In this document: in pieces, positions 22,270 to 23,760 of the stretch
Layout: each line of letters opens with the position of its first letter
How positions within the stretch are numbered: the first letter of the stretch is position 1
Assembly (NCBI GenBank): GCA_030697685.1
Contig: JAUYPF010000008.1
Span: forward strand, 1 to 41,746
Origin: a bacterium
GTDB taxonomy: Archaea; Nanobdellota; Nanobdellia; SCGC-AAA011-G17; GW2011-AR17
Reading direction: 5' to 3'
Length of the DNA stretch: 41,746 bases
Position numbers and translations under genes: made by a program
Notes under the pieces: generated by a model
What the model was told of the DNA's origin: nothing
The model's database searches: none
Seen by the model: only the letters and a program-made list of their open reading frames with translations

Positions 22270-23760
22270 TTAGCCCAAGGAAAATCGTAAAATTGCAGCA
22301 ACCTTTCCCAAATCTCTTAATTGTTCTCCTTCGCTTGTATCTGTGCTTATCATAATAAATTCAGCACCAGAAGCTTCAGCTTTTTGTTCATATTCCTCAG
22401 CTTTATCATCCTCTAATTTTTCAGAAACAAGTAATTTATCAACAGCCCCCATTTTCAATGCTTTTTCTACTTCGTTCGTCCCATAAGCAACTTTATTTGG
22501 TTCTGTTGCAAGGAGTTTAAAAAATTTATTCATAATTTCTCGTTCCTCAGTAATTGCTTCTTTTGCAAGAACATCCTTACTTTTTTCAACAAGTTCTCTC
22601 AAACCAAATTCTCCAGTGTAACTTAAATCCTGAATGCTAATAACTTTTCTTTTCAGTTGTTCATTGAGAAATCCCTCAGTTAAAAAACTATTTTTTGTCA
22701 TACCTGGCCCACCAACAAGAATTCCTTTCAGTTCTTTAATCTCCAAAAATGCTTTATTTGCAGCTTCACTAATTCTATTAAAAAATTCTTTCGTAGCTTC
22801 TTCTCGAATTCGTGCAAATCTTTGTGCAGAGTTATGTACAACAATTCCTCCAGCAACAAAGTTTTCTTGTGCGACTTTAATATCAATAAGAGAAATATTT
22901 TTTTCTTCCACAATAATCTTTTTAATGCATGTGCCTTGTCCTTCTTCATTTAAAAGATTCATTCCAACTTCTAATTCTTCTGCCGCTTTTTCAGTCCCAT
23001 CTTCTAAAAAGAAAACATGATCTGCGGAAGAAACAACCATTTCTTCACCGGCAGTAATTTTGTATACTTTATCTTTTGTCACTTCCCATTTATCAAGCAC
23101 TTCTGAGGAATGAAATTCTTTTGTAGCAAAATCATAACTCATAACCATGTCTCCTTTTTCTAATTCCTCAAGAGAGATCCATTGCCCATCATCAAGAAGT
23201 ACAGCTGTTTCTGGATCAAGGCATTGTCCTCCAGCTCTCGTTTTTCCAGGAACAGCAGAAGTCATATCTGTCAATTCCTGAATTTGTGTTCCCTTAAGTA
23301 ATCCAATATTTGCTTCTCTTTTATCTAAAACAATAAGTCCAAATGTTTCTTTGATATCAGCCATATCTCTAATAATATCCAGGACAAAAGTTTGATCGCA
23401 CCGATATAATCGCATTCGCAAAGGCAAAGGAGGTTCTATACTAAAAACTTGAATATCAGATTTTCCTTCTTTATCAGAAATATTTCCAGAAAAAATTGCC
23501 AATCCAGTCTCGGGAGTTTTTTTAAATAATCGTAAATGCCTAATCATTCTTTCTAAAGAATCAATGACATGCTGCTGTGTGGTTTTATCCTTAATATTTG
23601 AAGCAGTTCCTTGTTCCTGTTGAAGATGCTGAATAATCTTAATCATTTCATAGCCTGCAGGAATATATACAGAAACAAGTTCAGTATGCCTTCCACGAAT
23701 CTTTTCTAAGCTACGAATAAATCGTTTCAGTTTCTGTTTTTCTTTTGTATTTATTGCCAT
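22270..23760 (-). CDS. prf1: Archaeal peptide chain release factor 1 (aRF1), intein-containing
   Basis: N-domain TASNIKD, YRCDQTF, GKTRAGGQ and post-intein SAQRFARIREEATKEFFNRI; about 365 aa after removal of intein. Confidence 0.93.
   Translation of the reverse strand: MAINTKEKQKLKRFIRSLEKIRGRHTELVSVYIPAGYEMIKIIQHLQQEQGTASNIKDKTTQQHVIDSLERMIRHLRLFKKTPETGLAIFSGNISDKEGKSDIQVFSIEPPLPLRMRLYRCDQTFVLDIIRDMADIKETFGLIVLDKREANIGLLKGTQIQELTDMTSAVPGKTRAGGQCLDPETAVLLDDGQWISLEELEKGDMVMSYDFATKEFHSSEVLDKWEVTKDKVYKITAGEEMVVSSADHVFFLEDGTEKAAEELEVGMNLLNEEGQGTCIKKIIVEEKNISLIDIKVAQENFVAGGIVVHNSAQRFARIREEATKEFFNRISEAANKAFLEIKELKGILVGGPGMTKNSFLTEGFLNEQLKRKVISIQDLSYTGEFGLRELVEKSKDVLAKEAITEEREIMNKFFKLLATEPNKVAYGTNEVEKALKMGAVDKLLVSEKLEDDKAEEYEQKAEASGAEFIMISTDTSEGEQLRDLGKVAAILRFSLG
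22831..23223 (-). other. Mini-intein (about 131 aa) inserted directly after GGQ of aRF1
   Basis: Starts Cys (CLDPETAVLLDDGQWISLEEL, block A), block B ITAGEEMVVSSADHVFFL, block F/G SLIDIKVAQENFVAGGIVVHN followed by Ser; flanks GGQ / SAQRFAR; no LAGLIDADG insertion. Confidence 0.93.

Follow-up and report, generated by a model that had tools for sequence, protein, structure and literature searches.

A predicted class 1 mini-intein in the catalytic GGQ loop of release factor aRF1 of a Woesearchaeota-type DPANN archaeon

The aRF1 gene and its insert

The window, which here means the whole stretch of DNA analysed, covers positions 1-41,746 of the forward strand of contig JAUYPF010000008.1 (assembly GCA_030697685.1), and its genome is designated G000. 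A gene for the archaeal release factor aRF1 is coded on the minus strand, with the following features:

22270..23760, minus strand: aRF1 gene (peptide chain release factor), single copy, 496-aa precursor, recognized by TIGR03676 and eRF1_1/2/3
23224..23760, minus strand: N-extein, residues 1-179, with AGGQ at its end, from alignment to solved aRF1s and intein-free relatives
23224..23232, minus strand: catalytic GGQ motif, residues 177-179, with Gln179 as the intein -1 residue
22831..23223, minus strand: mini-intein, residues 180-310, 131 aa, Hint fold without endonuclease, from profiles, AlphaFold, and Foldseek
23221..23223, minus strand: intein Cys1, predicted first splicing nucleophile, Cys in 86/86 distinct inteins
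23017..23028, minus strand: block B Ser-Ala-Asp-His, Ser replacing the usual Thr; Ser in 99% and His in 100% of the 86
22882..22884, minus strand: block F aspartate, intein residue 114, Asp in 100% of the 86
22831..22836, minus strand: block G, penultimate His and terminal Asn, HN in 86/86
22828..22830, minus strand: Ser311, predicted +1 nucleophile and first C-extein residue, Ser in 86/86
22270..22830, minus strand: C-extein, residues 311-496, plus stop codon, from profiles and alignment to solved aRF1s

The precursor scored 393.8 bits with TIGR03676 (aRF1_eRF1 equivalog, cut-off 234.7), and the best stretch of this profile, positions 1-174, ends at residue 180. The three Pfam domains eRF1_1, eRF1_2, and eRF1_3 were all above cut-off, the YxCxxxF and NIK motifs are present, and the GGQ loop is regained once the insert is removed. 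Alignments with solved aRF1 chains stop at residue 180 and restart at 311, with a one-residue overlap of Cys180 and Ser311. The insert joins the exteins between Gln179 and Ser311, directly after GGQ; without it, the product is an ordinary aRF1 of 365 residues, and the same GGQ-S site is uninterrupted in intein-free relatives. The insert is neither a chance feature nor an assembly artefact, because an insert is present in all seven genomes of the genus and in 15 of 18 genomes of the family.

The original prediction had placed a 131-aa mini-intein at 22831-23223, and both its coordinates and its junctions proved exact. Its statement that removal of the insert restores the conserved aRF1 context is borne out by the solved chains, whose alignment rejoins at Gln179/Ser311, and serine is the first C-extein residue not only in the window but in each of the 86 distinct inteins. 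The alignment with intein-free aRF1s that it proposed revealed the empty site.

Splicing residues, fold, and relation to known inteins

The sequence of the insert, CLDPETAVLLDDGQ...NFVAGGIVVHN, matches the Intein_splicing, PT-HINT, and Hint profiles as well as solved inteins. In this profile search, one of the checks named beforehand, PT-HINT was above cut-off (7.6e-8), TIGR01445 (intein_Nterm) gave 3e-4, and Intein_splicing was slightly below its cut-off of 35.8 with 33.2 bits (5.7e-8), or 38.9 bits together with the neighbouring piece. An AlphaFold2 model computed from 27 homologous minis has an all-beta Hint fold with a mean pLDDT of 97.4, and Foldseek related it to the solved inteins BIL2, Cth (C. 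thermocellum) BIL, gp41-1, Npu DnaB, and Mtu RecA (TMq 0.84-0.93). The model of the whole aRF1 precursor had a low pTM of 0.43, and therefore no domain arrangement was drawn from it.

Cys1, the His-Asn end, and Ser+1 are kept in 86 of the 86 distinct inteins found at the aRF1 site. Judged by these residues together with the block B Ser-x-x-His and the block F Asp, the insert is assigned to the class 1 cis-splicing inteins, as had been proposed from the window alone. Block B lacks its usual Thr and block F its usual His; the window has Ser and Glu/Gln/Lys, respectively, at these positions. Among inteins, both residues are helpers that vary and do not strictly define class 1. The replacements are general across the 86-intein set, and on these sequences Ser-for-Thr and the absent block F His are taken as an old feature of the aRF1 intein allele. 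No LAGLIDADG match was obtained by profile search over the 131 aa, in contrast to the long relatives, which do match, so the earlier remark that the space is too short for a homing endonuclease holds. The window copy carries no endonuclease and is not an active homing intein.

The segment could instead be a permanent extra domain of aRF1 that is never excised; its in-frame position and its occurrence in about half of the order would suit such a structural insertion. This reading has a negligible probability. The invariance of the splicing residues (86/86) led to its rejection, and such a domain would occupy the very loop with which the factor has to reach into the peptidyl-transferase centre. 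Furthermore, the exact site is retained in intein-free orthologues, and homologues of the insert carry homing endonucleases.

Very probably, then, the sole aRF1 gene of this Woesearchaeota-type DPANN archaeon is interrupted by a class 1 cis-splicing mini-intein, an endonuclease-free remnant of a homing element. Sequence, fold, and the conservation of the catalytic residues in all 86 inteins predict that it splices. In the precursor, the GGQ loop would continue into a 131-residue Hint domain and should then be unable to fit the peptidyl-transferase centre, making the precursor presumably inactive. Cys1 would attack the Gln179-Cys180 bond, the ester would be transferred to Ser311, Asn310 would cyclise, and Gln179 would be ligated to Ser311 to give the 365-residue aRF1.

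The class 1 mini-inteins gp41-1, Spl DnaX, Npu DnaB, and the Mtu RecA splicing domain share with the aRF1 intein the Hint fold, Cys1, the His-Asn end, Ser/Cys/Thr at +1, and a length of about 130-140 residues. The aRF1 intein differs from them in its host, a translation termination factor, and in having block B Ser and no block F His; its sequence identity to solved inteins is at most about 31%. LAGLIDADG homing inteins of archaeal core genes (RFC, RadA, DP2, RtcB) likewise interrupt highly conserved functional motifs of essential proteins, and the long aRF1 relatives contain LAGLIDADG_3 as they do, but the window copy is without endonuclease and many long aRF1 forms add an XRE-type HTH_3. Bacterial intein-like (BIL) domains include the best fold matches, BIL2 and Cth BIL, but they sit in variable regions of their host proteins (PMC5874633) and need no +1 nucleophile, whereas the aRF1 insert interrupts the loop that is conserved best and its +1 Ser is invariant, and BIL membership was rejected on these grounds. 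Inteins in a factor required by every translating ribosome are known from fungal eIF5B/IF2 (PMC5784728), and one was found in EF-2 of G000; unlike aRF1, these hosts are GTPases. No report of an intein in aRF1/eRF1 was found in the open-access full text searched.

Distribution and evolutionary history

In the family, 13 of the 18 genomes carry an insert of 130-132 aa, two carry one of 505 aa, and three have none, the site being identical. The order comprises 104 genomes, of which about 91 have a scorable aRF1; approximately 45 of these aRF1s have an insert at the GGQ site (three of them fragments, the others read completely as 27 mini and 15 long forms) and 46 do not. The free state was scored in 41 by the uninterrupted GGQ-S pattern, in four as GG[FWY], and in one (G080) by a profile match without a break. 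The survey of related aRF1s suggested with the original prediction thus returned the same insertion well beyond the genus, and in about half of the order's genomes aRF1 appears oversized in annotation. About 28 further genomes elsewhere in the class have the same split signature, judged by E-value alone. GTDB contigs scanned with both junctions yielded 118 confirmed loci, of which 79 were kept, with records named Woesearchaeota, Pacearchaeota, Diapherotrites, Aenigmatarchaeota, AR20, one Nanohaloarchaeon, and one Thaumarchaeota; the aRF1 of the last places among Diapherotrites. Two complete genomes, CP045477 (Diapherotrites) and CP010426 (AR20), are among the carriers. Wherever both junctions were resolved, the site reads GG[Q/W]-C...HN-S, with the intein running from C to HN.

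The 86 distinct inteins comprise 40 minis and 46 longer forms. LAGLIDADG_3 was present in the long inteins scanned (359-510 aa), with E-values down to 2.5e-22 and above the Pfam cut-off. The three inteins of 505-510 aa scanned (L062, L068, and L093) have an XRE-type HTH_3, placed after block B and ahead of the LAGLIDADG endonuclease, which perhaps adds DNA-target recognition. The 359-aa intein of L074 has a single LAGLIDADG stretch left, and that of L137 is 275 aa long. Empty, full, shrinking, and mini stages coexist at the site, and this matches the prediction of the homing cycle. A free-standing Hint-like ORF of 131 aa was noticed at L164:2995-3390(+), within a few kb of the UBA9640 aRF1 that carries an intein; it starts with MAFDPET, ends with FVNE, has neither Cys1 nor a final HN, and is possibly a stand-alone Hint relic or a domesticated protein.

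The tree built from the aRF1 exteins requires at least 21 changes between presence and absence, and at least 37 among the three states. The very close sisters G098 and G099 differ, as one has the mini and the other does not. Distances among minis are correlated with those among their hosts (Mantel r 0.79 for the full set of minis and 0.71 for the window's group), more strongly than in the long forms (r 0.47). Long inteins L152, L153, L166, and L072, hosted by one Pacearchaeon, two Diapherotrites, and one Woesearchaeon, cluster against the host tree with SH-aLRT 100. The difference in correlation and the groupings against the host tree fit long forms that would be mobile and minis inherited mostly vertically. 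In a first intein tree, the minis stood apart from the long forms with 2 changes, but this separation was discarded, as LAGLIDADG residues from the long forms lay in linker columns; after removal of columns 91-97 and of three rows with long branches, the tree has 4 changes and is poorly resolved. When free and intein-bearing aRF1s were compared in pairs, neither identity nor synonymous differences near the site signalled a co-conversion tract: one such pair gave p=0.03, but a free/free control also gave p=0.017. No part of the mini alignment is conserved strongly enough to serve as a probe for a viral vector.

Inteins have dN/dS well below 1 and higher than the exteins, 0.08-0.27 in the genus, with dS near saturation in most pairs. 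Values were 0.08 for the intein and 0.02 and 0.02 for the exteins in L016/L017, and 0.19 against 0.02 and 0.06 in L014/L015.

An ancient, fixed insert inherited purely vertically, with no homing, would account for mini distances that follow host distances and for the occupation of the site in several phyla. It is nevertheless improbable, given the minimum of 21 presence/absence changes, the four long inteins grouped against the host tree, and the endonuclease domains above the Pfam cut-off in the long forms. More probably, the insert is what was left, minus the endonuclease, of a LAGLIDADG-type homing intein with the aRF1 site as its specific target. Its life history would have run from invasion through endonuclease loss to long retention under purifying selection, with occasional precise loss. 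The retention may be explained by the essential host gene, because without splicing there would be no termination, and any deletion would have to be exact.

Splicing and translation termination

The only other eRF1-type (eRF1_1) match in the genome of the window was identified as Pelota, and it was dismissed as a second aRF1 copy. An uninterrupted GGQ-S loop was not matched by DNA pattern in any of the approximately 45 intein-bearing genomes of the order, and missing data are therefore no explanation everywhere. Unspliced aRF1 would be unable to release the peptide, because the GGQ loop must reach the peptidyl-transferase centre for release (PMC6514570). Dependence of the cell's termination on splicing, as it was originally put forward, is well supported by the single gene and the lack of a free loop in intein carriers. 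The GGQ methylase would act only after splicing, as the Gln that it targets directly precedes the intein (-1).

Eight aRF1s of the order are without the GGQ glutamine, having GGF (G029, G073), GGY (G046), or GGW (G030, G031, G032, G035, G036). They fall in three places on the tree; four have no intein (L045, L046, L050, L056), and the other four, all GGW, are also intein-bearing (L066, L074, L080, L082). All eight read GG[FWY]SQ[QA]RY, whereas Gln at the SQ position occurs in just 18 of 110 GGQ forms; GGxSQ is the motif of aVLRF1/acVLRF1 (PMC6514570). Catalysis is perhaps taken over by this Gln two residues downstream. No further intein-free GG[FWY] aRF1s were found by a class-wide DNA pattern. 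TIGR00537, an archaeal HemK-related family which we take to be the GGQ methylase, was below cut-off in seven of the eight genomes (G029-G032, G035, G036, G046, G073; loci L180-L182, L184, L187), and in the eighth, G073, it reached 87.4 bits against a cut-off of 87, with NAPY in place of the NPPY motif. Absence in eight of 66 GGQ genomes gives a Fisher p of 2.6e-5 against the GG[FWY] set, uncorrected for relatedness, which suggests that the modified Gln and its methylase were lost jointly. G068 and G069 have kept GGQ, and their TIGR00537 score is weak. The GGQ-less aRF1s have a direct bearing on the catalytic mechanism of peptide release by release factors.

On the 1.07-Mb genome G000, about 17 further intein loci (L198-L214) were found, or about 18 in total; two CDC48-type pieces may be one gene. 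The hosts are gyrase/topo IV A, an EF-2 type GTPase, RFC, DNA polymerase DP2, topoisomerase I, RpoB, RadA, two HerA-type ATPases, CDC48, RtcB, UDP-sugar dehydrogenase, IMPDH, Lon, and some unnamed by Pfam. In L212 (G000:C40), an RpoB frame with an intein match is broken by TAA inside the intein region into 503- and 511-aa frames, pointing to a split intein gene or else to an error of the assembly. The aRF1 intein is one instance of a heavy infiltration of core genes by inteins.

It had also been suggested that the insert is a conditional switch. The mini-intein would then be domesticated as a post-translational brake on termination, and slow splicing, or splicing dependent on a cue such as redox, temperature, salt, or ribosome state, would set the level of active aRF1 and with it termination and readthrough. 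Such splicing is documented for other inteins (PMC5790916, PMC8557812, PMC6195587); those of P. horikoshii RadA and mycobacterial DnaB likewise interrupt essential proteins in their active region, and a position in the active loop would put the splicing rate in control of function. The endonuclease-free form is retained throughout the genus at the low dN/dS given above, but purifying selection is expected already because splicing must work. The conserved residues give no hint of condition-dependence, and among the 86 inteins no cysteine except Cys1 is conserved (the next commonest occurs in 25 of 86), which argues weakly against a switch. The many gains or losses of the insert, its difference between the sisters G099 and G098, and the number of other inteins in G000 also speak against the switch. 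Both the brake and the cue-dependent switch are very doubtful, and this part of the original prediction was not upheld.

The best reading is a new host gene and insertion site for a known kind of element, with all stages of the homing cycle represented. Dozens of genomes hold this one site in empty, full-length, shrinking, or mini form, which makes it well suited to studies of the homing cycle and of the cost of splicing in an essential gene, and it offers material for studying compact inteins that have Gln before them (-1) and Ser after them (+1). With aRF1 as a host, translation termination joins the processes predicted to depend on protein splicing, and the insert interrupts the factor in its most conserved catalytic loop.
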